A stretch of DNA of 64,000 bases from Isoetes taiwanensis. Its lineage: Eukaryota > Streptophyta > Lycopodiopsida > Isoetales > Isoetaceae. The DNA lies in the NCBI GenBank assembly GCA_021234155.1, contig JAJEKV010000020.1, positions 20,699,018 to 20,763,017 of the forward strand, given 5' to 3'. A program made the translations under genes and the position numbers. Under the pieces are notes generated by a model that saw nothing but the letters and a program-made list of their open reading frames with translations, was not told the DNA's origin and ran no database searches. The number at the start of each line of letters is the position of its first letter. The first letter of the stretch is position 1. Of this stretch, positions 2,873-50,134 are shown piece by piece.

Positions 2873-4856
2873 ATGGTGAAGAAGGTTGTTACTCCGCCGG
2901 CTCAACCAGTAATTCTAACGTATGCCATGCGCAGGGTAAGCAAAATGCATTAGCAATTTTGATATGGGCTTAGGGTGCCATGTTAATTTGTTTTTCTTAC
3001 TTTCTTCTAACCCAGAAGGAACGTGCCCCTGAGATCGGACCTGGCTGATTGCCGAACAGAGGAGGACTTTCATGCTTATGCGGGTCTACCAAACGATGGT
3101 GTACATCCCTCTCAATTTCGAACGGATGTCATTTCTGCTGCAGAGTATAATGAGGTTTGGGGTACCAATGGTGTCATTCCCAACAAAACATCAATTGACA
3201 AGGTAAGGCCAGAGCATGAAGAAGCTTTAATTGAACTGCTGAGCAAGATATACCCAGAAGGGTTGAAGAATAGAGAAGTAAGGAAAACGGTTTCCTATCT
3301 ATTTGCAGTCAACAACTGCCAGAGGGCCAAGCAGGATCCAGAAAATTTCAAGGTTAATTGGGCAGCAGTGGCAGCAAAAAGTAGGGCCTATTCGAGCAAG
3401 GTTAAGAGTGAACCCAGCACCAGTGGCCTTGTGAGCATAGCAGAGCCCAGCAAATCACAGCAGACAATAGCACCTGAAAGCATAGCAGAAAGGCCAGCCT
3501 CAGCAGGCACTGGTGTAAAATTAGAAGGGAGGTTGTCATTCAGGAGTACTGCAATGTGCCCAGCAGTGTTCTCAGCTTATGGGAAGAATATTGCCTGCCT
3601 GGAAAGCATGATCCAAGGTATATAAGATGCCTTAAAAATGCAACAAAGTAATCTAGTGTCCAAGAAGGAACTAGTTGCACAATCTCAGGCAAAGGGCACC
3701 TTCTTCCGGCTGCAGAGGGGAAGTTGCAGACTATAAAGGACAATATTGCACGTCTTCAAGCACTGTCAGATCCTAATGCAGGTGCCTCTACTGAGATTCA
3801 TTCTTTGGAGAGGGAGAAAGATATGGCAGAGTATATGCTGAAGTCCCTCCTTGAAGTGGGGGGTGGGCCAATAGATGAAACCATGGTACAAAAGGTGGCT
3901 GCACTAACTGCTGAGATTGCCAACAACGAGTCCCTCCTTGCAAAAGCCCAGCAGCACTTACAGAATGTCACCAGGCTGAGGGAGATGACCAAGAGAAATG
4001 ATCAACTGGTCAGCATCACTCCAATACGATTCCGCTTGCCAATGGGAGATGAGGAGAGATGCTCCACTTGTGGTCTTGCATTCCAGGATGATTACACCCT
4101 CAGCCTGCGGATGAAATGTGGACATCATTATCATGTGAGCTGCCTCAGTTTGCTAATGGAAAAAACATGCTGCCTCGAGTGCTCAGAGACTATTCCTACA
4201 GGGTTCATGCAGGAATTGGGGAAGCTTAATATAGTAAAGCAGGAAGTGTTATATGCTGGAGCATCTCACAAAACTGAGAATAAGATAATTGATGTTGATG
4301 AGCATGTAGCCACAACTCCTGATAGTAACAGGAAAAGGAAACAAGTTAATACACCAAGAAGTAAAAGGACCCCAGGATCAGCTAAGCACAAGTCTACAAG
4401 GGTTCAAACTCCACAGCAAAGACATGGAAAAAAAGGTACATGCCTATTTTCAGGGTCTCAATTTGAATTGGCAACATTAGAAGATGCTGTAAACATTGGA
4501 CAGCAAGCTACCAGCAGTCTGCAGCACACTGCAGCACTTGATAGCACAGTGCTGAAGACACCAACCCATGCAGAATCTAAGGGAGATTCAAGTAGTACTG
4601 ATGATGCTGCCAATTATCTTGTAGTTCCAAATTCTGCAGCTGCCTCTACAAAGGCCTCCTCTAAGTTGCTGCAGGGAAGGAAAACAATGGCGAAGATATC
4701 GACAAGCAGGTTCAGGCAGTCGTTTCCAAGGTCAACAGGTTGACATGGTCAAGGACCAGGAAGGTTGTGGAAGAAGCGAGTGAGGGTGAGTCAGAAGTTG
4801 ATCTTGATGAAGACGTCCCTATAGAAGTAGCATTTGGAAAAAAAAAACAAGGCTAA
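2873..4856 (+). pseudogene. Copy A accessory gene: helical N-terminus and RING-like finger
   Basis: This is the partner of the better preserved gene at 58537-60447. A 21-codon first exon (2873-2935) ends in a GTAAGC donor. In copy A the acceptor used in copy B is altered (CTAA in place of CCAG), so the frame is lost at the splice. A further stop lies at about 3624 in a segment that is open in copy B, and the frame is then shifted. The 3724-4743 part is open. It holds a coiled-coil-like stretch, then a RING-like cluster (about 4058-4190: CxxC, then CxH, HxxC and a final C-rich pair), then a basic, Ser/Thr-rich tail. RING fingers bind zinc and often act in ubiquitin or SUMO ligases; no activity can be claimed for this one. 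It probably continued into the phosphatase-like exons at 5499-6276. Confidence 0.75.
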
Positions 4857-5498
4857 TGTAATTTTGCCATATGTATTTCAGGCAGGCAAACCTTGATTGC
4901 TCAAGACAACCCTAAACCATCAGCCAAAAGGTTTTTGTTCAAACAATTAATATATTTGATCCCTGTTTTCTTCCACCATGAATGTGCAAATTTTGTTTGG
5001 ATAATTCATTCAACTTAGACTTGAGTAAAAACTTGTCTGCAGAAAAAGAAGGCAGCCAATGGTTATACTTAGTGAATCTGATGAAGAAGACAATGCCACT
5101 AAAGGAGTGCCATCACAACCTCTAACATACAAAAGGTGTCTGTTATCCTGTTATATTTCACCTTGTATATTCTCTACAAATTTCAGTTGGTAATTGGAGC
5201 ATATCTTTGCATGCAGGAGAACAAGGTAGGTTGTGAGTGATGAAATGGAGGATAAAGCATGGAAGGCCACTGCAAGGTTTACTGATAGCTAGGAAACACC
5301 AATACATTGGGGGCAGGGAGACACTAATACATATGTATCTGACTATGGCTATCAGCACTCTCCATCATCGGGTAGCAAACCTAAAGCAGAGTCTAGTAGA
5401 TCACAACAACGTCCAGCACATCTCGACAGCACTGCCCAGCACAGTCCAGCACAGCATGGCAGCAGAGTCCAGCACATCTCGCAGCACAGTCCAGCACA

Positions 5499-6279
5499 AT
5501 GCAGCACACATCGACAGTGGGTGCAAACGTTGAGGGATGGGAACCCAGACGGAACTTGATGGTGCTTGACATAAATGGTGTACTGGCACAGACACAACAG
5601 AGGAGAATGGGCCAAAAAATATTGCCTCCACCTCAAACGAACCATGTTGTAAAAGAAACTGCAAGTAAGTACCTCATTTGCAGACCAGGGTATCATGAGT
5701 TTGTGGAATGGGCACTGCAGAGGTTTGATATTGTGATCTGGAGTGCTTCTCTACTTCGGAACACAAGGGATATGGTGGATGCATTGTTCCCAGATTTGCG
5801 GACCAAATTCTTAAAGGTATATAGTTAAGAGCAGTGCTATGCATGTGAGCATCCAACTAGCATAGTAAAGCAACTTTTTTCCAGGGAGTTGAAGGTTGTA
5901 CTTGAGGATTTTCCTGAATATCATGGTATAATTTTCTTGGTAGATGACAGCCTACACAAAGGGTTTCTAAACCCTGCACACACAACCGTTCCTGTTATGC
6001 CTTTCAAGGGGCAGGAAGAGGAAGACTTTTTGCAGAAGGTTTGTGTGTCCAGCATTGGATTAGTTGTCTTCCTATACAGTTGAAGAAACAATCTCACAGC
6101 TAGACATCATTGATGCATGGTTGCAGAAGGAGACAGTTGATGTGCTGGATTACTATCTCAACAACTATCTTGTCTCGGCCTATTATCTCCTCAATGCTCC
6201 AAAAGAGGTACAAAGGCAGTTGTTGGGCACCATTCCCGAAGACTCTAACCACTCTGAAAACTTCAATGACTCCTGAAAA
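5499..6279 (+). pseudogene. FCP1/NIF-like HAD phosphatase domain, copy A
   Basis: Exon 5499-5816 encodes the start of an FCP1-type domain: LMVLDINGVLAQ near residue 25, then YLICRPGYHEFVEWAL and FDIVIWSASLLRNT. After an intron, 5889-6036 encodes IIFLVDDSLHKGFLNP, the usual FCP1 block with the Asp pair. In the catalytic loop DxDG(T/V) the second Asp is Asn (DING), as I recall for a plant subset of NIF-like proteins, so phosphatase activity is doubtful. An extra G at about 6037 and an in-frame stop separate the last segment (6064-6276), which copy B reads without a break. A Gln/His/Ser-rich linker made of CAGCACAGTC repeats (5400-5520) joins this to the RING part, and the frame suggests one fusion gene. 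Confidence 0.75.
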
Positions 6280-6492
6280 TACCATTGTACACTAGCCTTT
6301 TGTAATATATATGACTTACTTTATGTAATCTTGAGTATTGATTCCAAGTAATGTCTCTAATACATCATAAAAATTTAAGATAAAGGTCTTCAAAATTTAA
6401 GACAAAGGTCTTCAAAATTTAAGATAAATGCTGAAATGATGAAACAACTAGGTCAAACCATTTTCAACCTTCATATGGCAGGCTGTCAAGGA

Positions 6493-7770
6493 TCATCTGA
6501 TGGGTAGCCCCCTCAAGGGAAAACCTGTTGGTGTGGGAATTTGATTCATCTCAAACTTGATTGCTGTGACATGATGACTGTATTGATAAGTAAGACCTTT
6601 GTTTTGAAGTAGTTCCCAACTACCATTGGGTTGGATAGCATAGTATACACCAGCCAACACATGTTCATCGACATTAAAAGTCTGACCCCAACTATCATGT
6701 ACAATCTTGTCAAGAATATGCCTCGGCTTAACACACTTCACCACATAGAAGTCTGCATTCTCTTGATTGCCCTCCTCGGCTACAACTACAAAGTTGTCAC
6801 CTTCCTCTATGTTTCCACTAAGCCATTCCCCATCACCTTCAAAAAATGCCTCGTCAATTTCGTCATCAAGCTTCATAGGCTTTAGTGTCACATACTTCCA
6901 ATTCTTCAACTTGTGCCTATTCACACAACATGACCAGTTTCCCTTCAAACAGTTACCACAGAAACAACTTAAACCTCTATGAGCCACCCTTGTGGTCGAT
7001 TTGGACATGTATGTCCGGATGCTGTGTATTTCCTTAGTCCCTTCCACCCTGGCACAGTCCAGCCGGTTTGTCCTATCAACATCATCCTTTCCAATTAACC
7101 AGAAGTACCTGCAAAGAGACAGCAACAAGTATTGCAGCTCACAGACAGCATAATACAGCACTACTCATCATATTACAGCAGTTCACAGACAGCACTACTC
7201 AGCACATTACAGCACTACTCAGCACATTACAGCAGTTCATAGACAACATTACTCAACAGAATACAGCAGATGAAAGGATAATACCTTTTGATGTCCCCGT
7301 TGTTGGTACCTTCATTCCAACGAGTTGCGAATTCACAGGCATCAGCAGCACCCCTAAATCTCACCCCATCATACTTGAGCTGCTCTCTAGTGAATGCCCC
7401 TATAAGGACCGCCCCTTGTCCATCGTGCTCTCCCTTATCATGGACTGTCCAAAAGAAATTCCACACTATTTCCTTCCCTAGCTCATGGTGATATCTTGGT
7501 AGGAAATAGAATGGCCGGGCAGATTTGAATTGGCTAGAACAACCATCTGACCAAACTATATGCCTGGAGAATTCTACACCATTTGATACAAGCCATGAAT
7601 TGTGCTTCCTAAGACAGTGCTTCACAAAAAGAGTGTCATGAATCTTGTCATCACTTAAGTAAAAATGGGTTTCCTTCAATAGCTTTCTGATCCCAGAGCT
7701 TTTGTCTATCCTATACGTGATGTGGACGAGAATTGTTATCTAGTCATTGTACCAGTGCTGGTTCTGAACC
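6493..7770 (-). pseudogene. Transposase-like gene, 3' exons, copy A
   Basis: This is the C-terminal half of the transposase-like protein, cut from its 5' half by the insertion at 7783. Exon 7285-7770 holds the VWSDGCSSQFK block, the NFFWTVHDKG block (HGKG in copy B) and GEHDGQGAVL. An intron at 7109-7284 (GT-AG on the minus strand) is packed with CAGCAC words. Exon 6493-7108 starts YFWLIG and has a Cys-rich segment, CFCGNCLKGNWSCC, that could bind zinc. These blocks recur in copies B and C. I recall the same SDG...HGKG..DG pattern in multicopy animal proteins of probable transposon origin. The fold is presumably RNase H-like, but I cannot align it here. Confidence 0.75.
7109..7284 (-). repeat. 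Intron filled with CAGCAC/TACAGCA short repeats
   Basis: The intron between the codons for GDIKR and YFWL contains many copies of CAGCAC, ACAGCA and TACTCAGCACATTACAGCA. The homologous intron of copy B (about 62632-62762) has the same composition. The words match those beside the terminal inverted repeats. Confidence 0.7.
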
Positions 7771-7782
7771 TCCCTTTGTATT
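7771..7782. repeat. 12-bp target duplication, left
   Basis: TCCCTTTGTATT is repeated at 22073-22084 on the other side of the retro-insertion. Copy B has it once at the homologous place (about 63238), which serves as an empty site. Confidence 0.85.
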
Positions 7783-7859
7783 ATTATTATTTTTTTTTTT
7801 TTGAAGGAATGAAAGGTTTATATTCATAATATAGGAAGTATTACATCAGGATCCCATCT

Positions 7860-9501
7860 TGTGACGCTCCCTGCTAAACGTACGGCGCCCGGCCGTACAC
7901 TCGGCAGGAAATCCCCCATCCGGCTCAACAACCGCATGGGCCCTTCGTCTACCCCGCACTCTGAGGTGACTCTTAGTGCGGGAAGGGAACACGAAGGTGT
8001 CTTGCGCGCCCTTCCCCTATGGGCTCCTATAACAGCGGAAGCGATAACACGTCAGAACTAGCATCAACATATACAAATACTACCTCGAAGGGTAGTGCAT
8101 CACACATAAACCAAGGCAAAGATGATAATCACGAACCATAAAACATGAGAGCTCCTACCCCGCTCGGACTGTGGGAGGATGACCGACCGGCTAGGCCTCA
8201 AGATAGAGCGCGACCGAGTCATGGCAATGGCGGGGGCGGCATAGAACAATGGCTAGGGTTGACCACTCCATCCGCCCCTCACATTGCATACTTTGCAAAT
8301 GGGCTAGATCGGGCTCGACAGGACTCTAGCCTTCCTGATCACGCAATCCCATGGCATCACCCATCCGGGACTACTCCGGGTTGCATCTCCCCGTCCGATG
8401 AGGCGGGAAGGGTTGCATCTCCCCTTCCCGGATCTAGAGGTGCGTGGGCGGCTAGAGAATCGTGGGCGACACCGCATTCGCACTGCAGGCCAACCCCCAA
8501 AGCGAGAGCCAAGCCAACACTTGCGCTCTCGAGAGGCGGCAACACCATTGCCCCTGGAGAGGTGTCGGACCCATGCTCGGCCCATGCAGTGACCCGACCA
8601 TAAGCCTAGCCCACTATGGGATCCCCCGGCCCCCCACTCGGCGGGGATCCTCCCTCCACTTTCCCTCTAGCCCCAAGTATGCGGTGCTGAGTCATATCAT
8701 AGCCTCAATAGCTGGGTGGGCTCCTATGCACAGCCGCAACTAATAGGAACTAAGGGATCTACTCTAGGAGCATACTACATATGGCTCTAGGGTCTCTACC
8801 CCCTTCCCAATACAAGAGGAGCAAACATGATCAACCATCATCACATAATCATCACATCATGAGAATAATCATAAGAAGAACATCTTAACCTAATCATACA
8901 ACTAACTAATGGTTAGGGTTCCTTGATTAGGGTTCAAGATGTTGAATATGGGTTCTAGGATGGCTCTACTCTAGATACAAGATACTAGCACATCTGGAAT
9001 GCTAATTCCAGATGAGCTATCACAACTACTATCCTACATACCTGCTCCTGAAGCTCTCCCTCCAGATCCGTGTGCCTCCATGGTCTCCGACTCACGAGAT
9101 GCCGCTCCTACTCCAAGAACGAGTTCTACCCCGGCGGGCTGCTTTGCACCGGTCCTATGCCACGACAAAACGCGATGTTCAAAAACGGGGTTCGAGCAGT
9201 AGGTGAGTCTCCTCGGGTGCTAGGGCTGGAAAGAGGTCTAGGGTTAGGGTTTATGCCTATATAAGTTAGGTCCACCTAGGATGCCACGTGGCACCAATCG
9301 GGTGAGTCCTGTGTGGCGGTGCCCCAATAGGTCAAGGCCACGTGGATAATGGCTTAACCTATGGTTGGCTAAGTTATGAGAATAACTTAGCCATGCCCCC
9401 TAGTGCCACAACCTATGGTATACAAGGCTATGAAGATAGACTTGTATAGTGACGGATCCAGAATATAATTATTTATGGCGTATATTCCCCGGACCGTCAC
9501 A
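7860..9501 (-). repeat. 3' LTR of the gypsy element
   Basis: It matches 19397-21035 nearly end to end, with TG...CA termini and the inner inverted repeat TGTGACG/CGTCACA. Differences between the two LTRs are mainly small indels in GC-rich parts (for example 7870-7910 and 8160-8260). Confidence 0.95.
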
Positions 9502-9520
9502 TTCTCCCCCAGGACAATGC
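9502..9520 (-). promoter_or_regulatory. Polypurine tract of the gypsy element
   Basis: The minus strand reads CCTGGGGGAGAA directly before the 3' LTR, the place where plus-strand DNA synthesis is primed. Confidence 0.8.
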
Positions 9521-10357
9521 TTTGTCCCTCGGCATTAAGCTAAGGTGACGATCCTACCTTATGCCCGCAAAACATCATCATGTCATAACCTTTAATTTAG
9601 TTTAGCAATCAAGTTTTATTAGTTAAAGGTCAAAATTTAGGCTATATTTGTACTTATACAAAATTATATAGCCTTAACACCGTATTTCTTATAATAATTC
9701 AAAATACTATTATAAGAGTTATTAGGGTTCATAATCTAAATTATGGCTCCCCCTATCTTCTCGTAACGCGCTCCTCGTTGAAGTCCTCCTTCTACTTGCC
9801 TGCAAAAGGAGCACATTACGTTAGTTTAGTTAATAATTTGTGGTTTTAGGGGACCACCCCTTACCTCCTTGAGCCGAACCAACTTGGCTCAAGGTTGTCC
9901 TAATACCTTGCCCAAGATCATGGCCCTTTCGGATTTGAGCTTAGGGATCATTTAAGATGCTTCCATCATTGCCCATGATCGAGTGCTACCTTGTACACGA
10001 TCCCCCGGATCGAGTACACCCCAGTGCATCATGCCCCGAGGGTTTCAGCTAGGGAACGTCTCACGATCCCATCATCGCGCATGATCACTTTAACCTTCAC
10101 CATGACCCTCCTACGGCCCCAGTGTGCGTATCCCGCATCGTGGCATAGAGATCATCCGATCGATGTCCCATCATCGCCCACCATGCCTCATTCCTCACTC
10201 ACATGACCCTAATGGTCATGCGCACCTCTTGGTGCGTGTGGCCTAGAGAATGCCCTAAAGGCGTATCCCATCATCGCCCACACGATCCAAGGTTCTGGCA
10301 CATGCACCCTAGTAACTAGAATGCATGCGCCAAAGCTTAAAACTAACTAACAAAATA

Positions 10358-11539
10358 CTAGCTAACCACCGGAAAGTCGGGTTCCACCAAGCCTGGGAGA
10401 CGACTTCGCCCATCAAACTCCTTCATAAACTCTGGGTATTGCTTCTCCAAGTCTTGCTTCAATACCCATGTCGCATCTTCCACGGGTAAGTGCTTCCACT
10501 TAACCAAATACTGGAGGAACTGAGACCTCCTAGTCTTCTTGAATGACTTATCAAGAAGCAATTCAGGCACTATTTCTACTTGCTCCTCCGTCATTTCCAA
10601 CAAGGTTGGAGTATCCAAAACCTCCTCAGGGTTAGGATTGTGCCTTTTTAATAAACTTACGTGGAAGACCTTGTGAACCTTGAGATGGGCTGGAAGATCC
10701 AACTTGTAGGCTTGAGAGCCCACTCTCTCCAAAATCTTGAACGGACCAGCCCACCTAGGGGCAAGCTTCTTGCAGCTCCCAATCCGCAGCTTGGCTTGCT
10801 TCACCTTGATCTTCAACCAAACGGTATCGCCTACCTTGAACTCTCTTACGGTCCTGTGCTTGTCGGCTACACTCTTCTGCCGACTTCTTGCTGCCAATAA
10901 GTAACCCCTTACTTCTTCTACTAGCTGCTGCATATCCCCTAACATCTGCTGGGACACTTCTACCTTGGACCGCGAGATTGTGCCGGTATCCGGGGTTAAG
11001 CTTGGTACGTAATTTACCATGAAAGGAGACATCCGAGATGACTCACCTTGGCAATTGTTGTGGCCGAATTCCACCAAGTGGATGTACTCATCCCACTTGG
11101 ACCGCTTGTTCCACACATAACTTCAAGCATATCTTCAATGATCCGATTCGGCCTCTCCGTCCGCCATCTGTTTGGGGATGATATGCCGTGCTCATGGAGA
11201 GCTTCGTGCGAATGGTGCTAAAGAGATCCCGCCAAAAGGCACTCATAAACTTAGAATCTCTATCGATATTATCTCCCGGCATGCCATGGAGTCTGAAAAT
11301 CTCCTTACAAATAACTTGGCAGTATCTAATGCGGTGTCAGTAGTCTTGCAAGGCACAAAATGTGCCATCTTAGATAACTTATCTACGACAACCATCAATG
11401 CGTCCTTGCCTCGAAGAGTTCTAGGGAGACCTGTGATGAAATCCATGCTTATGACCTCCCACTTTGCATTTGGCACCCCCAATGGCTCAAGAGCACTGAA
11501 TCGGGTTGCTCTGCCTTGGTCTCTGCGACATAACCGCAA
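10358..11539 (-). pseudogene. Integrase core and chromodomain of gypsy pol
   Basis: Three open segments cover this part. 11243-11539 holds the first catalytic Asp (SMDFITGLP). 11088-11282 holds the second (DRDSKF) and AYHPQTDG. One base is missing just after AYHPQTDG, so the Glu that follows is out of frame. 10358-11116 continues the C-terminal part. It ends in a chromodomain (about 10430-10585) with YLVKWKHLPVEDATW. Of the three aromatic cage positions known from HP1, only the central Trp is evident; the first and last positions look like Val and Leu. Such a domain targets integration to particular chromatin in chromoviruses. Confidence 0.9.
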
Positions 11540-13110
11540 TCCCGAATATATGCAGCTATCTGCCTCTTCATTCCTGGCCAGAAGTAGCTACTTCGAATCT
11601 TGAAATAGGTCTTCATGAAGCCAGCATGCCCTGCTATTGGGCTGTTATGTGTGTCATGAAGAATTAGCTTCCTTACCCCTGATGATTCGGGCACACACAA
11701 CTTATGCTTGTGATACAACAAAGTTGCCTTCCTTCTTATAATGCTTGAAGGCTTCCCCTCCTTATCTGTTGCGGCTTCCTTGGAAAGACTTTTCCATACC
11801 TCCTTGAAGTCCACATCCGCTGGCAAGGACTCTTCAATCTTCTTGCCAAACTCACTCGAAAGAGTGGAAATCGCATTACAATCGCCCTTGTCCAAAATGG
11901 TCTCCCCGGAGAGGGCATCTGCTACAACATTAAGCTTACCAGGCTTATATACAATATCAAAATCATACTCCTCAAGGAATTCCATCCACCTCCTTTGCCT
12001 TAAGTTGAGGGAGTGGTCGGGTGAAGAGATCTTGAAGGCTCGTTGATCGGTATCCAACCAAACTTCCTTCCCGGCCAGATAATGCCTCCATATCCTCAAT
12101 GCCCTGACAATGGCTAGCAGCTCCTGATCATGGGTTGGGTAGCGTTGCTCGGCGTCGTTCATCTTCTTCGAGTCGTAGGCGACTACCCTTCCTTCTTGCA
12201 TCAAGACTGCCCCTGTTGCTATCTTGCTTGCATCTGTTGCTACCAACTTATCTTTACTCGGATCCGGAAGAACAAGCACTGGTGCTGTTGTTAAGGCCTC
12301 TTTAAGCTTCTCAAAAGAAGCTTGGACTTTCTCTAACCAATGGCTAGTCCAATCCTTAATCTTCTTGGCCTTAGTGAGGTCCGACAGAGGGGACGCCCAC
12401 TTAGCAAAGTCCTTCACGAACTTTCTGTAATATCCCGCCAACCCGAGAAAGCTTCTTACTTCTGCCACATTCCTTGGAGCTGGCCAATCAACTATTGCCT
12501 CAATCTTAGATGGATCTGTGGAGATTCCCTCGGATGTTACTACGTGCCCCAAATACTCCACTCGGCCTGTTGCAAAGTGGCACTTAGAGAGCTTCCCATA
12601 CAACCGATGACGTCTCAACTTCTCCAACACTTTCCTGAGATGCTGACAATGCTCCTCAAGGGACTTGCTGTCGATTAGGATGTCGTCGAAGAAGACAATA
12701 ACAAACTCATCCAAGAAGTCTCTGAAGATGTCGTTCATGAGGCGCATAAACGTTCTTTGGAGCATTCGATAGTCCAAAGGGCATTATCAGAAACTCAAAA
12801 TGACCATACCGCTAAAGCGGTCTTATGGATATCCTCTTCTTTTTATTCTTATCCGATGGTATCCTCGACCTCAAATCAATTTTAGAGAATACCTTTGCTC
12901 CTTGTAATCGGTCCATTAGATCATCGCCCCCTTGGCAATGCATACTTGTTCTTTATCGTCGCTTATTAAGTCGGGCGATAGTCTATGCACATTCTTAAGC
13001 TCCCATCTTTCTTCTTTACAAAGAGTATAGGTGCTCCGAAGGAGACACACTTTGTGCTCTTATAAATCCAAGCTCGAGCAATTCCTCGAAGCCGTTTCTT
13101 GAGCTCAATC
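11449..13110 (-). pseudogene. Reverse transcriptase, RNase H and integrase zinc domain
   Basis: The long open part 11449-12777 carries the RT active site VIVFFDDIL (about 12682-12700), the thumb, RNase H blocks ([17 protein letters not shown]) and the integrase zinc region [11 protein letters not shown]...DCGY. The last Cys of the HHCC finger is lost through a shift. Upstream fingers and palm (12778-13110, with KVFSKIDLRS and EFLIMPFGL) are in other frames with stops. The enzyme copied element RNA into DNA in virus-like particles; this copy cannot make it. Confidence 0.9.
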
Positions 13111-13636
13111 AATTACAGGGTGCTCATTCTATATGGCCTTCTTGGTAGGCTTCAGATCCCGAGCCAATGTGATCTCACATTCCACACCCCTATAAGGTGG
13201 CGTGCCGGTTTCATCCGAAATACATCCTTGAACTCAAAATAAGCCTTGCTATCTCGCCTTTGGCCCCTTTGGGTCATTTCCCTCCGCTTGCACGGCTCAA
13301 CCGATTCCATCCTCAAGATGTAGTCCACCTTATTCTTTTCTATACTCTTCCTTAGCCGCTTCAAAGAAATACACCGCATGGGAGAATCTAGCTTCTTACC
13401 TTTCACTATCGGTTTGTTGCCATCCGTGCCGCCATGGTGACTTCATTCCGGTCGCAATCAATCATGGCTTTGGTGGCTTCAAAAATTCCATCCCCACTAT
13501 CGGATCATATCTTCCATGTCCATGACTTCGCTCCCCATCGGCCACTTAGCCCCACTAAGGTCTATGTCAAAGGTGATCCTCCTCCCCTTAGTGTGCCGAA
13601 TGGCCGCCGCTTGCCATAGCTACGGCCTTGGCTTAG

Positions 13637-13745
13637 ACTTCAATACCTTGTTCTTCATTAGAGCGACCAATCTAGGAGATGCAAAATTATGAGAGCTACC
13701 AGTATCTATGAGGACTACATAAGGATTACTATCTATGATCCCATC
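13637..13745 (-). pseudogene. Aspartic protease motif of gypsy pol
   Basis: The frame reads VLIDTGSSHNFASPRLV with the catalytic DTGSS at 13683-13706. Flanking frames are broken, so only the motif region can be placed. Confidence 0.8.
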
Positions 13746-13774
13746 CGCCCGCGATGATGACAAATCGTGATTCT

Positions 13775-15031
13775 CTATATCACCGTCTCAATGTTTGCAC
13801 ATATGTGGCACTCACCATCTATGAAGTCCCGCCCTCCCCGCTGGTCGTCGTCCTCGTCATTCGTTGGGGAGTCCCAATCCAAGAGTTCTGCCAAGGCTGA
13901 CTGCATGACGAATGGACAATCATGTGTTCGGTGCCCTGGCTGGAAGCACCTGAAGCATAACTTTTTCTCAATGCATTCCTGTCTCTTTTCCTTCGGCAAA
14001 CTGTCTAGGAGACGCTTAAGAGCACTGCCCCCTGATGCATTCTGTGGCTTACGGTCCCCAAAAGCTTTGTTCTGACCCTTACCTTGCTGCTGACTCCCAC
14101 GATGGTGTAGGCTGGCTGATTGCTTACCCCGATATTGCCCCCGATCTTTGCACAACTCTTACCCCTGAAGGTTGACTGTTTCTCTGCTGGAGTTGCTGGT
14201 GCCTCTTCCAAACTTATAGCTTTATCTTCGGCCTGTGCAACTGACTTCGGGTTGATTGCTCTAACAAGCCTCTTGATATTGCTGTTCAACCCCTCAATGT
14301 AAGTATCCACGGCTTGCCTCTCTGAGACTCCAGGAACATGCAGCCTGAGCCTCATAAATTCTTCGGTATACTTAGCCACTGATAAGCTACCCTGATTCAA
14401 CCTGTAAAACTGTTGAATCTGTCTACTAGTATGAGATCTTGGCACATAGTGCTTCGGAAGGAAAGCCTTCTTTGAAGGTCTTAAACCTGCAATTGTTCCT
14501 CTTCAGCTTGTTGGACTTAGCATATCCCTTCCACCAGATCCTTGCCGGTCCAATAAGGTTAGCTGTAGCAACTTTCCCTATGTCCTTGTCTTTCATACCG
14601 TATGAGTTGCCAAATTCTTCCATTTCATCAAGCCATGCTTCAGCCTCCATGCCTGATCTGTCTTTCCCTGAGAACTGGTCGAGCTTCCTTGTCTTCCATA
14701 CATTGCTCATAGCACTATCCACCTTTTTCTGATAGTCATCTGTCTTTCTTGCTCTTTTCCTTGCTTTAGGTGTGCCCGACTGACTGTCGGAGCCAGAGCT
14801 GTCCTCACTGGAAGAGCTATCTGATGAGCTGGAGCTAGATGATGATGGACTCCTGGTTCTCCTCTTCCTTCTCCTATCCCTGACGTTCCCCTGGTTGCCC
14901 TCCCCTTCCTGCTGAGGGACTTCGTCACCACCCGGAAAACAAGGTGGAGGTGGAGGACCATCTTCCTGTGCATTCATGAGAGGTGTCGCCCAGTTGATGA
15001 GATGTTGCATTTGGTTCCTCATCTGCACCAA
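13775..15031 (-). pseudogene. gag with CCHC zinc knuckle
   Basis: Three overlapping open segments (14426-15031, 14005-14445, 13775-14155) in shifted frames make up gag. The first has an acidic, Ser-rich linker, then the capsid signature IGPARIWWKGY. The second has GSLSVAKYTEEFMRLR and YIEGLNSNIKRLVRA, typical of the retrotransposon gag domain. The third ends with a CCHC knuckle, CFRCFQPGHRTHDCP (13913-13956). The first segment's start is uncertain because the frame opens at TTG rather than ATG. Confidence 0.9.
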
Positions 15032-15379
15032 CCTTGGCGTTGGGACTCACCTGGTGACATATCCTGCTCAAAATCTTCTTGTTCTCTGCCAAACAAGTTC
15101 CTTGGTACCCAATTGCGTGGTCGGTGCTGGTCTTGAGATCCTGCACTTGAGTTCCTTGCTGCAAGGATTGATCATCAATACATTTTATTTGGGTTAGATG
15201 TTGATCAATTTTACTTGCAATTGAATTATCTTTAGTTATAAGAAATCATACAAAGCCTTACATTGACAAAACAGTTAATAGTCATTAATACATAAGGATT
15301 ACATGATAAGGTAGATATATCTTAGCATAATGGGTACACGAAACATTTAGCACAAAACTTAAGAAAATTTCACAATTAT

Positions 15380-15718
15380 TCAGTGGCCTCCCGAAAGCCT
15401 GAAGAAGTTCTTGACATCCCTGAATCGGAGGCCTTTGCCGAGGTTGCGCAAGATGTTCCTCGTCGATCTTCCTTCAAGTGCTCGGGCCATCTCCGGTTCC
15501 GGAAGTTCCGGTGCTGTTGCTGCTACCACTGAAAGTGTTGCGTCCCTAAGGTGCCCTCTCGCAAAGTCGAGGCAATGGAGCCTTGACGCCTCGTTGAAAA
15601 GAATGATGTGATCGGCATGGGCGTATATCTTCGAGTGCTGCCCGAAGCCCGAGAGTGCTATGAGAAGTGCCACGGATTCTTCCCCCCTTGGGTTGAACTC
15701 CTTGTGGAAGACTATCAT
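15380..15718 (-). CDS. Unassigned ORF upstream of gag in the gypsy element
   Basis: A 112-codon frame starts MIVFHKEFNPRGEES. It is hydrophobic in the middle (LLIALSGFGQHSKIYAHADHIILF) and ends before gag. Another open frame of 119 codons (15546-15905) overlaps it in a different phase, so the true product may be longer and frameshifted. I recognise no family. By position it is an extra element protein or part of a longer one that includes 16525-16920. Confidence 0.35.
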   Translation of the reverse strand: MIVFHKEFNPRGEESVALLIALSGFGQHSKIYAHADHIILFNEASRLHCLDFARGHLRDATLSVVAATAPELPEPEMARALEGRSTRNILRNLGKGLRFRDVKNFFRLSGGH

Positions 15719-16524
15719 TTGCCCTTGACTGAGGGCTGGAAGATAGTAGCGGCGTCGCCCTTCCCTTCCCTACGCCTCGCGATCCAAAGGTGCCCTTCCT
15801 CGGAAGCCGCTTCACCGTAGGCATCCACGCCATCGGGTCTTCATGATCCCTCCACATCTTTGGTTGCATTGTCCAAGTTGATGCTTCTTTGGACCCTTCC
15901 CTCATGCTCCCCGCTCGAACCGGTCTGCTTGAGCTTGGGCCCTTCCCCGGTTTGTAGAGTGTGCTCAGTATCTGCTTTGGAACTCCTCCTCCGAGATGAT
16001 AGGTTCCTGGCTGCCGATAGATCTCCCTTATCTGGCGATAGGTCTGCTATGTCCCGACATTGTCTCCCCAAAGATAAGAGTGTCTCTCCGCCACTCCCTT
16101 GGAATCTCCCGGTATGAGTAGTCGATGAGGTGCATGCTCTTCCCGTGTGCTATCATGCCCAAGAGCTCGTCGATTCAAGACCTTGTTCCCGACAAGGGAC
16201 AAGTTGAGGATGTCATTCGCAAAAATGTACTCCCCGGTCGATGACTATCGGTGACAAAAGCCGTGATGCCGACCGGTGGGTCTTAGAGTCGTTCTCATGT
16301 CGTCGTCATGCCTCAACGCATACCTCTGCATTCTTGTTGCCTCCCTGCTCTCCCATTCGGGTTCGGCTCCCCTAGCTGCTCGTAGTCTTCATGGATCTCA
16401 GAGAGATGGTGCCCCGGCGTCGTGCCATAGTATTCGTGAGGGGAGGACTCTATATTCAGGATTTGATCCTGGGCCCTACGGGTATCAAGTGGCGCTAAGT
16501 CTAAGGGCTGAACAGAGGGTTCTC

Positions 16525-16920
16525 CTACTCTGTTGATTGACTTATAGTGCATGAAGAGGGCAAGGGCTGTCTGAGCTGAAAGGTACCTATGCCTATTATG
16601 TCTCCCGCAGTCATGTAATCGGGCATGGTCCTAGTCCTATCCCATAGCTGCTTCTTGCCTTTGGATCCTGCCAACTCTCGACCTAAGGCTTGGGTAAGTG
16701 TCTCAAGAGAAACCCAATTCCCTCCCCTAGGAGGCAGTCTAACTTCCCAAGGCAGGACCTGCTGGTCATATTGGCACATAATGTCCGTGTAGTAGGGTGT
16801 TCTAGTCAAGGTTGCATGAAGATCAAACAAGTGATCAAACACAGAGAAGGCTTGATCTACAGGAAGCTGATGGATATGGCTTGCAGCATTGTACCATCTC
16901 TCGAAGTTGCTGGGCGCCAT
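16525..16920 (-). CDS. Unassigned ORF MAPSNFERWYNAA in the gypsy element
   Basis: A 131-codon frame begins with a good ATG. It is rich in aromatic and acidic residues (FSVFDHLFDLHATLTRTPYY) and has no motif I know. It lies between the H3-tail-like ORF and gag, a zone where plant gypsy elements usually have only a short leader. It could be an N-terminal extension of gag after frame repair, or a separate accessory protein. Confidence 0.45.
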   Translation of the reverse strand: MAPSNFERWYNAASHIHQLPVDQAFSVFDHLFDLHATLTRTPYYTDIMCQYDQQVLPWEVRLPPRGGNWVSLETLTQALGRELAGSKGKKQLWDRTRTMPDYMTAGDIIGIGTFQLRQPLPSSCTISQSTE

Positions 16921-17216
16921 TGAGTAGGCAAGGGTGTAGAAAATGGCTTACAAAGATCAGTTGAGGTTCAGAAAATCGCCTAAGGGGCTGGGAGCAGTTC
17001 TGTAGAAGGAAAAATGGCAAATGGGACCTATTTTTATAGACTATGGGTGACCTCGAGGTTCGTGCAAAAAGGTGCCTACCTAAGACGGCCTTGGTTCTAT
17101 GGCTCTGGGTGTCCAAATGAACTACCATGAAGTGCAAACTTAAGCAAAACAAAGCAAGAAACACTACATGGCAATTTGTTGGATCAAATTTGGCTAATTT
17201 GGGCCAAAGATGGGCT

Positions 17217-17520
17217 GACCCGGGTGAATCCGCGCGGATGGCCTCCGCGTCGCGGACGCAGACGCGTTTGGCGCGGTCTCACCCGGTTGGCCTGTTTTGG
17301 GCCAATTTTTGGTCATTTCTGGGAATTTAAAGATGCTAATATGGCTAATTGGGCCAATTCTAACCTAACTAGCAACTTATTTTGAGCAAAACTGACATCT
17401 AAAAGCATGATTTTGGGCCCGGTCCGGGTGAATCCAGCTGTAGCTTAGCCAGCGTCGGGACGCTTGAGGGCCTTAGGGCGGTCTCACCCGGTTGGCCCGA
17501 TTTTCAGCATTTTGATGATT
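17217..17520 (-). repeat. Pair of GC-rich direct repeats in the element's upstream zone
   Basis: Two blocks (about 17217-17330 and 17418-17520) share CCGGGTGAATCC at one end and GCGGTCTCACCCGGTTGGCC at the other. Each block is itself a loose palindrome, since GGGTGA pairs with TCACCC. Coding frames are broken here. The blocks could act at RNA level (packaging or dimerisation) or be a small inserted repeat. Confidence 0.55.
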
Positions 17521-17751
17521 TTTTTGCCAAAAATTTTGTTGTAGTCATGATTTCTAGGGTGTTTCTAGACATGCTATGAAGAATTCTACCACAATTGGGT
17601 TCTATTTCCTATATTTCAAGCATACAACATTTTTCTAATTTGCAGAGGAAAAGTAACTTTTATATTAATAAAAACACAATTACATGGGAGTTTCTCTTTT
17701 CTAACAAAATTTACAAAATTTGAGGCCTAAGGCCTCTCTGCGAATCCTCAG

Positions 17752-18165
17752 CTAAGTGAATATCCTTAGGCATAAGGGTAACTCTCTTAGCATGGATAGC
17801 GCAGAGGTTCCCTTCCTCGAAAGCTGGACCAGCTGCGCCGGAAGCCTCTTGCGGGGCCGGGTCATTAGAGGGGTAACCCTATAATCGGGTCCGAAACCTT
17901 CGCAACACCTCTCTAAGGAGGCGCTCGAGGGCGCCTTCCTTATCGAGATTCGTGCACATCCGGAAGTGCGAATCTCCCTAAACACCCGGCGTATGTGTTT
18001 GTTCGGCCCGTGGTGAACCCTCTTGGGTTTTTCCGGCCTAGGTGGGGGTGGCTTGGGCTGGTTCTTCTTGCCCGGCCGCCCTCCCCGACGGCCAGCTACC
18101 TCCCCGGCGGCAATACCACTCATTGTACCTCGTCCAGCGGCGAAGGTACTCCTTATATCTACCAT
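17752..18165 (-). pseudogene. Basic C-terminal continuation of the H3-tail-like ORF, shifted
   Basis: This 137-codon frame overlaps the end of the previous ORF in another phase. It starts TTG/GTG-like rather than with a clear ATG. It is Arg/Lys/Pro-rich (GRRGGRPGKKNQPKPPPPRPEKPKR, shown in part) and then has HIRRVFREIRTSG. The likely reading is that one base change near 18090 split a single longer protein. Confidence 0.4.
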
Positions 18166-18823
18166 CTTCCGGCTTAAACTTCGCGGTCCTGGCTGGAGCC
18201 GAATGCCCGCCCCCCCCTTTTTGCTTCTTCACCACCTTAGGTGGTTCCGGCCACTTGGGGTAGGGTGGCCTAGCGTCGGGGTCCTGCTGCCCCTCCTCCT
18301 CCTCTTCCTCCACTTGTGGCTCCTCCTCCGGCCGGGGCTCTTCAATAACGACGGTCCGGCGAGGCCCGTCGTTCCTTCTCTTCGTACGCCTTTCTTGCTC
18401 CCTCAGCTCCCTTTCCCGCTCCCGCTTCTTTCTGGCGGCCCTCTCCTCTGGCCACTCCGCGACTTTTTCCTTCCCCTTCTTTTTGGGCACTGAAGGGCCC
18501 GCTTCTTCGGTCGGTGGTGGTGCTTGCTCCTCCACACGTTCTTCAACTTGTTCCTCCACCTCGGTCTGCGAGGCCCCGGCGGGTGCGACTTCGTCCGTTC
18601 TTTGTGTTCCCCGCCGGCGAGGGGCTGCTCTTGGGGGCTGCTCGGCATCGTGGCTTCGCTCGGTCGCTGCCGCTGCCGCCGCTTGAGGGCGATTCCCTCG
18701 CCCTCCGGGCTTCGGTAGAAGGTGCTCAGGAACTTTCTTCACGTGCCGACCCGCTGCTACCTGCGCCATAGAGAGGGTGGGGCGCTCGCCAAACTTCCTA
18801 GCTGTTTGTTTGGTGCGTGCCAT
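18038..18823 (-). CDS. Retrotransposon ORF with a histone H3-identical N-terminus
   Basis: The first ATG of this frame (18821-18823 on the minus strand) has a purine at -3 and G at +4. It begins MARTKQTARK, then FGERPTLSMAQ. After Met removal, expected because residue 2 is Ala, the N-terminus would be ARTKQTARK, identical to residues 1-9 of histone H3, including the K4 and K9 positions. Beyond that there is no histone fold. The rest of the 261 residues is low complexity: Ala-rich, then Glu-rich, then a long Arg/Lys/Glu stretch with coiled-coil character, then acidic, ending near RYKEYLRRWTRYNEWYCRR. It is the first ORF after the 5' LTR and primer site. The same element carries an integrase chromodomain. 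That it mimics H3 is inference from the sequence. Confidence 0.8.
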   Translation of the reverse strand: MARTKQTARKFGERPTLSMAQVAAGRHVKKVPEHLLPKPGGRGNRPQAAAAAATERSHDAEQPPRAAPRRRGTQRTDEVAPAGASQTEVEEQVEERVEEQAPPPTEEAGPSVPKKKGKEKVAEWPEERAARKKRERERELREQERRTKRRNDGPRRTVVIEEPRPEEEPQVEEEEEEGQQDPDARPPYPKWPEPPKVVKKQKGGGGHSAPARTAKFKPEDGRYKEYLRRWTRYNEWYCRRGGSWPSGRAAGQEEPAQATPT

Positions 18824-19383
18824 ATCTTGTGGTTCAGGAATGGGTGACGTAAGGCTGAGCAAGAGAGAGGTGAAGGTGAAGGGTTGGAGAGAGAGAATGA
18901 GGTGTCAGATATTTAAAAAGGAGGGTCCCTGGGAATATTCTCCTACCATAATTACCCCTATTTATTAGCCCCCCTTATTAATTACACCATATTTAGCAAT
19001 TATTTAACTATTAATGTATAAATTAAACCTATATTAATTAATATTATACCTTAAATTTTCGAATTTTTCTAATGGTTTGAAGTGCTAATTATGAATTTGC
19101 GCCATTTTTCACCTGGGTCTCCGATTGGCATGATTCTTCGACCCATTTTAGGTGAAATTTGATGCAGATGCATAATTTTCACTCCAAATTTACTAGAAGA
19201 TGAGTTTGACTCACTCAACTTTCGTCTAACACTTAACCTAAGTCCTGACCCACTACCTAGGAGAAAATTTTTTCCCCCATTTTCGCGGTTCGATGGTGGA
19301 AATGTTTATTTCACACCCCTATAGGCCTGTTAGACTACTTTATGGTTATGGTCAGTGCTAGTTCTTGGTCAACCAAGAACATC

Positions 19384-19395
19384 GCTCTGATACCA
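19384..19395 (-). promoter_or_regulatory. Primer-binding site for initiator Met-tRNA
   Basis: The minus strand reads TGGTATCAGAGC one base after the end of the 5' LTR, the standard plant LTR-retrotransposon primer site. Confidence 0.9.
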
Positions 19396-19396
19396 T

Positions 19397-21035
19397 TGTG
19401 ACGCTCCCGCTAAACGTCTGGGCCCGCCGCACACACTCGGAAATCCCCATCCGGCTCAACAACCGCATGGGCCCTTTCGTCTACCCCGCGACTCGAGGTG
19501 ACTCTTAGTGCGGAAGGGAAACATGAAGGTGTCTTGCGCGCCCTTCCCCTATGGGCTCCTATAACGTGAGGCGATAACCGCGTCGAAACTAGCATCAACA
19601 TATACAAATACTACCTCGAAGGGTAGTGCATCACACATAAACCAAGGCAAAGATGATAATCACGAACCATAAAACATGAGAGCTCCTACCCCTGCTCGGA
19701 CTCGTGGAGGATGGATGGTGACCGCTAGGCCTCAAGATAGAGCGCAGCACCGGAGTCATGGCAATGGCGGGGCTGGCATAGAACAATGGCTAGGGTTGAC
19801 CACTCCATCCGCCCCTCCTGCATGCATACTTTGCAAATGGGCTAGATCAGGCTCGACAGACTCTAGCCTTCCTGGATCGCAATCCCATGGCATCACCCAT
19901 CTGGGACTACTCCAGGTTGCATCTCCCCGGGTCCGATGAGGCGGGAAGGGTTGCATCTCCCTTCCCGGGATCTAGAGGTGCCGTGGGGCGGCTAGAGAAT
20001 CGTGGCGACACACGCGATGCATGCTCAACCAACCCCAAAAACGAGAGCCAAGCCAACACTTGCGGCTCTCGGGAGGCGAGGCAACACCATTGCCCCAGAG
20101 GTGTCGGACCCATGCTCGCCCCACGGTGACCGACCATAAGCCTAGCCCACTATGGGATCCCCCGAAGCCCCCACTCGGCGGGGATCCTCCCTCCACTTTC
20201 CCTCTAGCCCCAAGTATCCGGTGCTGAGTCATATCATAGCCTCAATAGCCTGGTGGGCTCCTATGCACAGGCCGCAACTAATAGGAACTAAGGGATCTAC
20301 TCTAGGAGCATACTACATATGGCTCTAGGTCTCTACCCCCCTTCCCAATACAAGAGGAGCAAACATGATCAACCATCATCACATAATCATCACATCATGA
20401 GAATAATCATAAGAAGAACATCTTAACCTAATCATACAACTAACTAATGGTTAGGGTTCCTTGATTAGGGTTCAAGATGTTGAATATGGGTTCTAGGATG
20501 GCTCTACTCTAGATACAAGATACTAGCACATCTGGAATGCTAATTCCAGATGAGCTATCACAACTACTATCCTACATACCTGCTCCCCCGGCTCTCCCTC
20601 CAGATCCGTGTGCCTCCATGGTCTCCGACTCACGAGATGCCGCTCCTACTCCAAGAACGAGTTCTACCCTGCTGGGGCTGCTGCACCAGTCTATGCCACA
20701 ACAAACGATGTTCGAAACGGGGTTTCGAACGAGTAGGTGAGTCTCTGGGTGCTAGGGCTGGAAAGAGGTCTAGGGTTAGGGTTTATGCCTATATAAGTTA
20801 GGTCCACCTAGGATGCCACGTGGCACCAATCGGGTGAGTCCTGTGTGGCGGTGCCCCAATAGGTCAAGGCCACGTGGATAATGGCTTAACCTATGGTTGG
20901 CTAAGTTATGAGAATAACTTAGCCATGCCCCCTAGTGCCACAACCTATAGTATACAAGGCTATGAAGATAGACTTGTATAGTGACGGATCCAGGAATATA
21001 CGTATTTATGACGTATATTCCCCTGGACCGTCACA
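19397..21035 (-). repeat. 5' LTR of the gypsy element
   Basis: This is the 5' LTR because the primer-binding site lies next to it at 19384-19395 and all ORFs run from here towards lower coordinates. It should carry the promoter, but I did not find a convincing TATA box to report. Confidence 0.95.
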
Positions 21036-22084
21036 CATCTGGATCAGATTTGTATTCAGCACAAAAATACAAATATTTCAATACACAAAAAAAGATTACT
21101 ATAGGAGTAAACTCAACATCTTCGTCTTTCTTGTGCAAAGAAATATTTAAAGCTCTAGAAGCCAGATATAACTAATTGCACAAAGAAACTCTTCAGAATA
21201 AAGATGATTAGAAAAGAAACCAAAGTAACCTAAGAAGCTGCCACTCTTCTCAGGGAAGCAACCATTGCTTCCAAGAAGACCAAAACTGCAAGTAAATCAA
21301 CAATCTGTGAGATTGCTTTAGATGCTGCATTGTCGGGATGTGAAACAGTCAGCCTGAGTTGGTTAGACACATAGCCCAACTGCCAAGACTCCTCCCTTAA
21401 GTCTGGTTTATGATGTAAAGGCTTCTTCCTGTACACAAATAAATCCCTAGCTCGGCTCTCTAAATTAATCTCATTTCTTGTAGAAAGCCTGTAGAAATTG
21501 GATCATATACTCTGTTCTTTCCAAGAACCAGCTCTATACCTCTCCACCAGCAAGAGAGAAGAAAAGAAAGGAAAGGGTTCTTCCATCCGACCTTAAAATT
21601 TGGTTTAAGATATGAACTGCCAGCAAACATTACAACCTAAAGCTGCTTTTCTTAATAGCCTTGCGAAAATTTTGCTCCACCTTATAAGCTACTGTGCAAT
21701 TTCGGTGTGATCTAAAATAATAATAGAGGAAACTGCTGTTGCCAGATCCTTCCAAAATTATAAAGAATCATAATGCTTCCGCATTAGAGCAAAAATACCA
21801 CGTTAATGGTACTTGCAGGACCAAAAAGACCGCCAAGAAGCAGCTCTAAGCACAAAGAAACCAGCAATTCTTATTTACCAGAAATCTTGAAGACAAAATG
21901 TCAGATCCCCAACTGGCACCCAAATTTTGACCTTGAATATCTCCTTTGCCGTAGCAGTGCCGGATCAGAGAGACGAGGGCGGCCTCCTCTCTCCTGTATC
22001 TGCCCTAGGCGCAGACGATAGCGCCAAGAAACGACATCCGTTCCAATCACCCCCGAAACTTTTATATGCAAATCCCTTTGTATT

Positions 22085-23587
22085 TTTATGCTGTAATTCT
22101 CTCAAAATCAATTACAGAAACAACGGTGCTATCTCGGATGTTGTCAAGGCAACTCCTGAATTGCAGGGCCTGCCATCTAGCCCTGTAATTATGTGGCACA
22201 AATATCTTCAATGTGGAACATAGATAGGAAATGAAATCCTTCACTGCCGTTCTCTTGTAAGACAATCTAAGAACTGGCTTTGGTTCCTTTTTTTTTTCCC
22301 CTTGCCAGTTGAGGTCTCGTCTTGTCCTGCAGTTTCAGACTGTGTCCCACCAGCTACCTTGGATTTCTTACTTTTGTTTCCCTTCTTGGTCGCATTGGAT
22401 CTTTTCTTTCTGCTGCCACCTGGTACTTCCTTGGTAACACAGTCTGCAACTCCACCAGCTTCTTCTGTCTCCACTGGAATTTGTAGCAAGGTCTGTAGCA
22501 TAAAACAGAAGATTAGTGCAAGTTGAAAGCACAAAAGCAGGATTCAACGGATGACAGCACATCTCAGCATATTGCAGCACGGAGCTTTTGTATGGAAACT
22601 TATACCTGTGTGACCTCCATAAGGTGCAAGGGATAAGAAATTTGGAAGCCTGAGTCTCCAACAGTGTTCACAACATCCTTCTTGCAAGGAGAGACTCTGC
22701 TATTTTGTTTCCAGAATTTTGTAATGCTTTGCTTGCAAGCAGGGGTGAGAGAATCGCACCTCAACCTCCTTTGGAAGCAAGACTACGGACCATATCCAAG
22801 AACGGCTTCCGATTTTCTTAATGCAGTAGTTGCAATTGTTGCCCTTTTGGAACCTATCATAAGAAATATTGCACATTATTCAATGAACCTCTCCTAGCCA
22901 GCAGCACTCAGTAGATATAAGCACCTTAAAGCATAAAGAAGCACAGACTTGATTTTGTGCACTCAGCAGATACAAGCATTTAAAAGCATAAAGAAGCACA
23001 GGCATGGAATCAAGAATTAGATTTAGATGTATCTAACAGCCCTGCCATAGTGGAATTGCATCTCGATTTTGTGGAAGAAGCCATCACCAGTGTCGAGGTT
23101 CTGGCTCTCCAAATATCATGGTTCCTTTGCCTCTTTGTGTCTACCATTGTCTATTTCAAGTTGTTGAGCAGCACCCCCGTTGCCTTGCACTCCTTTGGAT
23201 TTGGCAAAATTCCAGGTTCTGAGATTTCCATTTCGTGGTGATGAACCACCCTCTTCATCACATCGGCCTTGAGTTCGGGTGAATGTTTTTTGGTGAGCTT
23301 GTTGAAGTAATCAACTACAAGCTTGGCTATTTCTTGCCTGCGTCTCATGCTCAGATCTTCCCGTTCACCGCTGCTTTTCTCATCTTATTCCGTAATCTGT
23401 AATCTCTCTTTCTCTCTGCATCCAATTTCTTGTAAATTGTAGATGAAACTGGATCTTCACGCGATATTTCCTGTGTTGCATTGAGATCCAACAAATCTGG
23501 AACAATATATTGGAATTCATCAGGTCGAAAATCCAATGCTAAACGTGTGATTGCCTCCAGGCCGGTATCAGGGAGCGCCATGAATTT
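22085..23587 (-). pseudogene. Transposase-like gene, 5' exons, copy A
   Basis: This is the N-terminal half of the gene continued at 6493-7770. The likely start is MALPDTGLEAITRLALDF at about 23580; the longer open frame to 23698 begins at TTG. It then has an exon with basic KRDYRLRNKMRK, a block near 22660-22900 with a Cys/Lys motif (SPCKKDVVNTV, like SPCKKHVIKIW in copy C), a Lys/Ser-rich linker, and an exon (22241 and below) for KIFVPHNYRARWQALQFR and VSVIDF. Copy A has a stop just after VIDFERI where copies B and C read DFAENY. Confidence 0.7.
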
Positions 23588-32639: not shown

Positions 32640-32844
32640 GGTATGGCTATGTCGCCCATTGCTTGTTTCTCTTTAATCTTTCTCGCTTCCCCTTTTTCTC
32701 TTGTTTTTTTTTTTTTTTTCATGGCATTTGCACTCAAATGCATCAAAATGTGTAGATGAAGGAGGCGCAAGAATTATGGAAGGGGCATAGAGGTTCGATG
32801 TAATATTCAAGACCATTAGCTTAGCGTAGTTGCAAAAAATTTAG
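32640..32844 (+). other. Probable 5'-UTR intron of the kinase gene
   Basis: A GTATGG donor follows CCTTTTTAG at 32640 and a TTTAG acceptor lies at about 32844, six bases before the ATG. No coding frame crosses it. Plant kinase genes often have a leader intron, but only the splice signals support it here. Confidence 0.4.
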
Positions 32845-32849
32845 GTGTA

Positions 32850-36190: not shown

Positions 36191-36267
36191 TAGGGTAAAA
36201 TCACACCTCCGTCCAACCACGACCCTCCGCCATCCCCCCTCCCCAACCCCCCTCCCTTTTTTTGCTT

Positions 36268-50044: not shown

Positions 50045-50134
50045 TATCCTAGGTGGCATGGGAAAAAAGGAGCGGAAATATGACGTGGAATGGCTGATAG
50101 GAGGCCATTTTCAGACCCCAAATCCGCCCTAATG

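Follow-up and report, generated by a model that had tools for sequence, protein, structure and literature searches.

The locus described here raises the question of why a protein encoded inside a plant retrotransposon should begin with the exact residues of the histone H3 tail, and whether the element puts those residues to use. It lies in a window of 64,000 nucleotides of Isoetes taiwanensis DNA (contig JAJEKV010000020.1), in which MARTKQTARKFGERPT opens a minus-strand reading frame (18823..18038) that runs for 261 codons to its stop. The 261-aa product carries H3 residues 1-9 after the initial Met followed by a charged, low-complexity linker, and is shorter than the product of the corresponding frame in other copies. 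No ten-codon window in the family's protein is more tightly constrained than its first ten codons, MARTKQTARK (18794..18823, minus strand). An earlier note had described the frame as a retrotransposon protein with an H3-identical N-terminus, and the frame was indeed located inside an LTR element.

The reading frame with the H3-identical start

The start codon of the window frame has a good context (purine at -3, G at +4), and no second MARTKQTARK-type start was found elsewhere in the 64-kb window. A base-composition model puts the expectation for the ten-codon pattern at 9e-9 in the window and at 1.5e-4 for each Gb of sequence. Prokaryote contigs totaling 257 Gb contained nine exact occurrences, seven of these inside H3 genes; the remaining two are chance matches against 0.06 expected at uniform composition, so that the base-composition model is too low. 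The frames opened by these two matches, both in bacterial contigs (L001:6061-6090 and L004:728-757), span only 28 and 19 codons respectively, and the flanking DNA examined shows no H3 fold. Even after allowing for the model's underestimate, a chance origin of the start in a single 64-kb window is negligible. None of 500 dinucleotide shuffles of the window ORF stayed open, and it is not a random open frame.

Searches with the window ORF (18038..18823) returned no Pfam family and no H3 match among PDB sequences. The exact ten-codon pattern was absent from viral collections, and a search there for relatives, in which records close to the window's genome may be missing, found none. A likeness of ORF residues 11-60 to H3 residues 11-40 was rejected as not significant, 164 of 1000 shuffles being equally good, and codon usage compared with the element's own gag/pol gave mixed values along the ORF that decided nothing. 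The structure predicted for the window ORF alone was of low confidence, with two long helices and the rest mostly unstructured.

The host element

The frame belongs to an element of ~13 kb on the minus strand (about 7860-21035), in which it is an accessory gene, the first after the 5' LTR and upstream of gag. The LTR pair, 1.64 kb each, comprises the 5' LTR at 19397..21035 and the 3' LTR at 7860..9501 (both minus strand; 92.4% identical, K2P 0.074), and a 5-bp CATCT target-site repeat flanks the element at 7855-7859 and 21036-21040. The 5' LTR is followed by the primer-binding-site-like TGGTATCAGAGC (19384..19395, minus strand), presumably of the usual initiator-Met tRNA type. The gag region consists of overlapping broken frames at 13775..15046 (minus strand; Ty3_capsid 3.4e-8, Retrotrans_gag 7.5e-7, and a zinc-knuckle-like piece below the Pfam cut-off). 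The end of RT, RNase H and the zinc-binding part of integrase were identified at 11449..12783 (minus strand; RT_RNaseH_2 3.3e-30, RVT_1 1.6e-12, Integrase_H2C2 4.7e-15), and the integrase C-terminus with a chromodomain (~10403-10576) at 10358..11122 (minus strand; SH3_Tf2-1 1.8e-23, Chromo 1.9e-11), gag and pol of the window copy being split into overlapping frames. The features of a chromovirus are thus present, namely LTRs, a primer-binding site, a target-site repeat, the gag-pol order and a chromodomain at the C-terminus of integrase. When set against HP1 positions, the integrase chromodomain presumably keeps one of the three aromatic cage positions. This would fit the type II chromodomains described in the cited part of PMC6317226.

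Between the histone gene and gag, a stretch of ~2.6 kb (15100-17700) holds several broken frames (e.g. 16947-16525), and the pieces of it that were tested gave no Pfam match. In the leader, between the primer site and the histone ORF, the segment 19076-19188 displays imperfect self-complementarity (~67% over 120 aligned positions, E 0.009).

Elsewhere in the window, a host gene at 32820-34744 (plus strand) combines a pair of ubiquitin-like domains with a PI3/PI4-kinase domain, a layout that we take to be that of plant PI4K-gamma. A repeat of more than 5 kb, about 87-94% identical, pairs 2627-7787 with 22073-22575 against 58299-63740; its first copy is interrupted by the chromovirus plus an extra ~1.1 kb, and its second includes a RING-like ORF (58651-60447; E 0.0019, below the cut-off). 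Dispersed segments that are near-identical (98-99.8%) were found at 36249-37559, 44733-46078 and 50132-53869, and within the last of these 50132-50683 and 53318-53869 (99.8% identical) may be the LTRs of a young element.

A decayed histone fold in the window copy

Just past the stop of the window ORF, and out of frame with it, lies a degraded H3 histone fold (17734..17979, minus strand; H3 residues 50 to ~134) with at least one frameshift and one in-frame stop. By tblastn, H3 residues 69-128 matched 17926-17750 (34 of 60 identical, E 8e-13), and the piece 17878-17714 matched both the core histone family PF00125 in Pfam (2e-8) and H3 in a PDB sequence search (3.5e-9). Frameshift-aware alignment of H3 with 18100-17680 scored 177, whereas the best of 60 shuffles reached 51, and a stricter frameshift penalty still covered H3 50-128 with one frameshift and one stop. 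The piece 18228-17755, in another frame, gave by itself no histone match in the PDB-sequence and Pfam searches, and the window copy's match to H3 37-68 was not significant on its own (29 of 200 shuffles equally good).

Together with the in-frame folds of other copies described below, these alignments mark the window copy as a disrupted form of a full-length H3-like protein, and a fold-less tail decoy is consequently no longer the leading reading. The proposal that the fold had decayed before insertion with the tail kept, argued from the window alone, was dropped after intact copies were found.

Copies across the assembly

A search for further copies in the assembly that contains the window (1110 contigs, 1.66 Gb in total) gave 9,936 candidates at first look and at least 146 scored places. 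Of these 146, 108 including the window copy were retrieved, about 88 from the top of the ranking and another 20 from near its bottom. The aligned start read MARTKQTARK in 66 of the 108 copies, MARTKQTYRK in 25 and otherwise in 17, counts that carry a slight bias toward kept tails since copies were ranked by similarity to the window ORF, itself perfect-tailed. The ten-residue start is kept in related copies, a point that the earlier note had proposed to check. One open frame of at least 340 aa was present in 58 copies, 55 of them 360-379 aa long, and 35 of the 50 copies lacking such a frame retain an exact MARTKQT[A/Y]RK start.

The open copies have a common layout of an H3-like start, a charged linker of ~260-270 aa and an H3 fold. 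Alignment to H3 from residue 37 was obtained for 55 of the 58 (51-65 identities over 83-99 residues), a partial fold only being found in the other three (L058, L091 and L095), and the H3-like C-terminal motif was reached in 47. All three open copies tested matched Pfam Histone (4.6e-29, 5.2e-28 and 6.9e-28), and a profile built from 47 of the 58 copies matched canonical H3 from the PDB at 3.6e-36 with no gaps in the fold. The contention that this was not a captured histone gene with its fold has to be withdrawn: the fold is there, out of frame in the window copy and continuous with the frame of the tail in the majority of the 58 open copies. A tail-only mimic devoid of a fold was likewise ruled out by the relic in the window together with the in-frame fold of the open copies. 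Loop 1 of CENH3 is longer than that of canonical H3. A CENH3 origin was provisionally rejected from the comparison with canonical H3, in which the alignment was gapless through loop 1 and no insertion stood there.

Two subfamilies were distinguished among the 58 open copies, K56M/K79R (29 copies) and K56Q/K79V (26 copies), with a kept tail in both. Tyrosine at the position of H3 A7 fell mainly in the K56M/K79R subfamily (17 of 20 such forms).

By the usual H3 numbering and residue roles, the residues of DNA contact and of the H3-H3' interface R63, K64, R69, R72, R83, C110, H113, K115, R116, T118, K122, D123, L126 and R129 were each found in at least 50 of the 55-58 readable copies. None of the 58 open copies retains K56, for which M or Q usually stands, K79, for which R or V usually stands, or the motif at 87-90 that governs chaperone choice; several of the usual modifiable lysines are missing, those left being K4, K9 and a small number in the fold. 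On this residue pattern, the product of intact copies is probably nucleosome-competent. AlphaFold modeled an intact copy with low confidence only (mean pLDDT 51); the helices of the model (278-297, 300-316, 321-341, 344-353 and 356-368) lie, at that low confidence, roughly at the positions of the H3 helices.

Signals around the gene also recur. In the window copy a TATA-like TTTAAATA (18910..18917, minus strand), a possible internal promoter, is located ~94 nt upstream of the ATG and is followed by a CT-rich stretch. A TATA-like motif 79-100 nt upstream of the ATG was found in 102 of the 107 copies with enough upstream sequence, compared to 9 of 103 in a neighboring control stretch, and all 99 copies whose start reads MART have a purine at -3. 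The primer site was identified 549-575 nt upstream of the ATG in seven of eight copies, including the window copy (572 nt). Eight short frames with their own ATG precede the ORF in the window copy, all downstream of the primer site; on a full-length element RNA they would impede translation of the ORF, and they count against the leading reading given below. Downstream pieces were analyzed for 20 open copies from the upper part of the list, and on the sense strand, at near-constant distance past the ORF, RT/RNase H and the integrase C-terminus were each identified in 17 and the chromodomain in 16, with none of the three domains seen in three copies; the histone gene and chromodomain were ~8.2-8.5 kb apart in 16 of the 20. 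Because both the upstream signals and the downstream domains recur across copies, the histone gene is part of the element and no peculiarity of a single copy. From the comparison of copies, the ORF is seen to descend from histone H3, to reside in the element and to have been retained in many copies.

Selection on the tail and the fold

Among the 58 open copies, pairwise dN/dS was lowest in codons 1-10 (0.05, dS 1.08) and in the fold (0.09), and reached 0.18 in codons 11-30 and 0.10-0.14 over the remaining linker. These estimates come from non-independent pairs of open copies only, drawn from a ranking by likeness to the perfect-tailed window ORF and with synonymous sites near saturation. On a tree of the same 58 copies built from codons 31 onward only, with changes counted by parsimony, synonymous and nonsynonymous changes numbered 96 and 9 in codons 1-10, 83 and 48 in codons 11-20, and 520 and 196 in the fold, and codons 1-10 had the lowest nonsynonymous share among 36 ten-codon windows. 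Seven of the nine nonsynonymous changes in codons 1-10 were Ala/Tyr exchanges at residue 8 (H3 A7), and H3 K4 and K9 were invariant in all 58 copies. Residue 11, at the place of H3 S10, varies freely (8 synonymous and 17 nonsynonymous changes), and S10 is not kept. The contrast between 96/9 and 83/48, together with the free residue 11, indicates that the constraint drops where H3 identity ends. The test for purifying selection on the first ten codons, which the earlier note had proposed, is clearly positive within the I. taiwanensis genome. According to these substitution counts, purifying selection is acting on both the tail and the fold of the element H3, and the near-unchanged first ten residues suggest that the element uses them to act on host chromatin.

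In 13 copies (among L012-L039 and L118-L135), pS was 0.36 for the histone ORF compared to 0.23 for the chromodomain, and nucleotide divergence in the same copies was 0.085 in the leader and 0.059 at the integrase end, well below the pS of the histone ORF. Recombination between subfamilies or constraint on the leader are candidate causes of this excess divergence.

Possible roles of the element-encoded H3

The reading that we favor, with moderate confidence, is that a chromovirus-like Ty3/gypsy family encodes an H3 variant that enters nucleosomes and shows a K4/K9 tail to the host. The family would have acquired a histone H3 gene and retained it, in an accessory role, in the interval from the 5' LTR to gag and downstream of the conserved TATA-like box; the intact product of this gene, of ~360-380 aa, is composed of H3 1-9, a linker replacing H3 10 to ~36 and a complete H3 fold. 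An N-terminal Met is generally removed before Ala, and a free ARTKQTARK end would then be offered to K4- and K9-directed proteins, as the position of the constraint suggests. The conserved contacts point to a protein that could pair with H4 and enter the nucleosome as an H3 variant, presenting the K4/K9 tail to host writers and readers without K56, K79 or a recognizable K14-K36 region. Chromatin on or around the element might in this way partially escape normal silencing or attract the element's machinery. The chromatin-directed role put forward in the earlier note is plausible.

Incorporation into nucleosomes is ranked above a soluble tail decoy because the fold is constrained too. Such a decoy, whose free N-terminus would bind or titrate H3K4/K9 readers and writers outside nucleosomes with the fold serving for H4 or chaperone binding only, seems rather unlikely; it would explain why codons 1-10 are constrained above the fold and why the residue after K9 is free to vary, but would need neither the strong purifying selection on the fold nor the kept DNA-contact residues. 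It also draws on an engineered editor in which endogenous DNMT3A is stimulated by Dnmt3l carrying a fused 12-aa H3 tail; a 30-aa tail was more potent there, full H3.1 with its globular domain was not, and a critical role of the free N-terminus is suggested by the authors (PMC11875203). In that setting, a transplanted H3 tail can act outside its own histone. A self-targeting pair, in which the integrase chromodomain would read nucleosomes containing the element's H3 and bring new copies near old ones, appears improbable: the two genes do reside in one element at the near-constant spacing given above, but the chromodomain, with one of three cage aromatics in a comparison with HP1, would be of type II, for which the cited part of PMC6317226 gives the binding partner as unidentified.

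Improbable to much the same degree is a packaging protein, charged and histone-like, that would compact element RNA or cDNA in particles with its tail as a processing or import signal, since the highly charged linker and the location of the gene upstream of gag would agree with it but H3 1-9 would be left unexplained as the most constrained part. Passive capture, with a host H3 gene hitchhiking in the element without function, is highly improbable; ample documentation exists for host sequences captured by plant LTR elements, 1343 of them in sorghum (PMC13317346), the window copy is broken and 50 of the 108 copies are broken by the open-frame measure, but a passenger is contradicted by dN/dS of 0.05-0.09, near-saturated synonymous sites, long frames in 58 of 108 copies and the conserved TATA-like box. 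A chance match of ten residues has a probability close to nil. Such matches do occur, as the two in 257 Gb demonstrate, but the expectation of 9e-9 in the window, the H3 fold in the same gene and the 66 exact and 25 MARTKQTYRK starts among 108 copies refute it, in agreement with the earlier note.

Going beyond the favored nucleosomal variant, the element might run its own chromatin state by making an H3 variant and depositing it on its own copies, with the tail read by the integrase chromodomain or by host K4/K9 machinery. This is unlikely on the sequences at hand; if true, the selfish element would have created an epigenetic address of its own and maintained it in two or more diverged subfamilies.

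Comparison with known systems and implications

Histone mimics such as influenza NS1 and others carry short H3-tail-like sequences within other proteins. The Isoetes element shares with them the use of an H3-tail-like sequence by a parasite, and differs in encoding a whole H3 homologue with the tail at its N-terminus. Multi-copy H3-like genes carried by transposons are also found in fungi, where hAT DNA transposons of Pyrenophora tritici-repentis carry H3L and hAT elements of Pseudocercospora carry H3-like copies (PMC3538342, PMC6710886). In the parts of these reports cited here, the Pyrenophora H3Ls are expressed, with N-terminal tail insertions in 26 of 26 and a variable fold, and 90% of the H3-like copies of P. 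fijiensis are truncated; the authors' view is of transduplication with possible drift in Pyrenophora and of RIP-inactivated copies in P. fijiensis (PMC3538342, PMC6710886). The Isoetes element differs from these DNA transposons, as there described, in being an LTR retrotransposon and in the concentration of its purifying selection on H3 1-9.

DNA viruses encode histones as well, including the bracovirus CvBV-H4 with an extended tail and single viral H3s, and have in common with the element a captured histone with a long N-terminal region; the viral proteins are thought to enter host nucleosomes, according to the cited sections (PMC9145170). The xenomavirus H3 tail is given in the same sections as highly divergent, whereas the element has kept its first nine H3 residues (PMC9145170). 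With the plant chromoviruses Tekay, Reina, CRM, Galadriel and Tcn1 the element shares LTRs, a tRNA-Met-type primer-binding site, gag, RT, RNase H and a chromodomain at the integrase C-terminus, and the cited parts of their descriptions mention neither an extra gene nor a histone gene (PMC6317226, PMC3350952). The word "histone" is absent from the main text of a 2026 review on plant gene capture (PMC13317346). A retrotransposon-encoded histone was found in none of the matches listed from titles and beginnings of abstracts in the open-licence literature.

Transposon silencing acts largely through histone-tail marks. With an H3 variant in an LTR retrotransposon on which selection is sharpest at the residues of the K4 and K9 marks, the idea that a parasite may rewrite its own silencing chromatin from within the nucleosome becomes directly testable, and the family would provide a natural experiment on what H3 residues 1-9 do when severed from the remaining tail.
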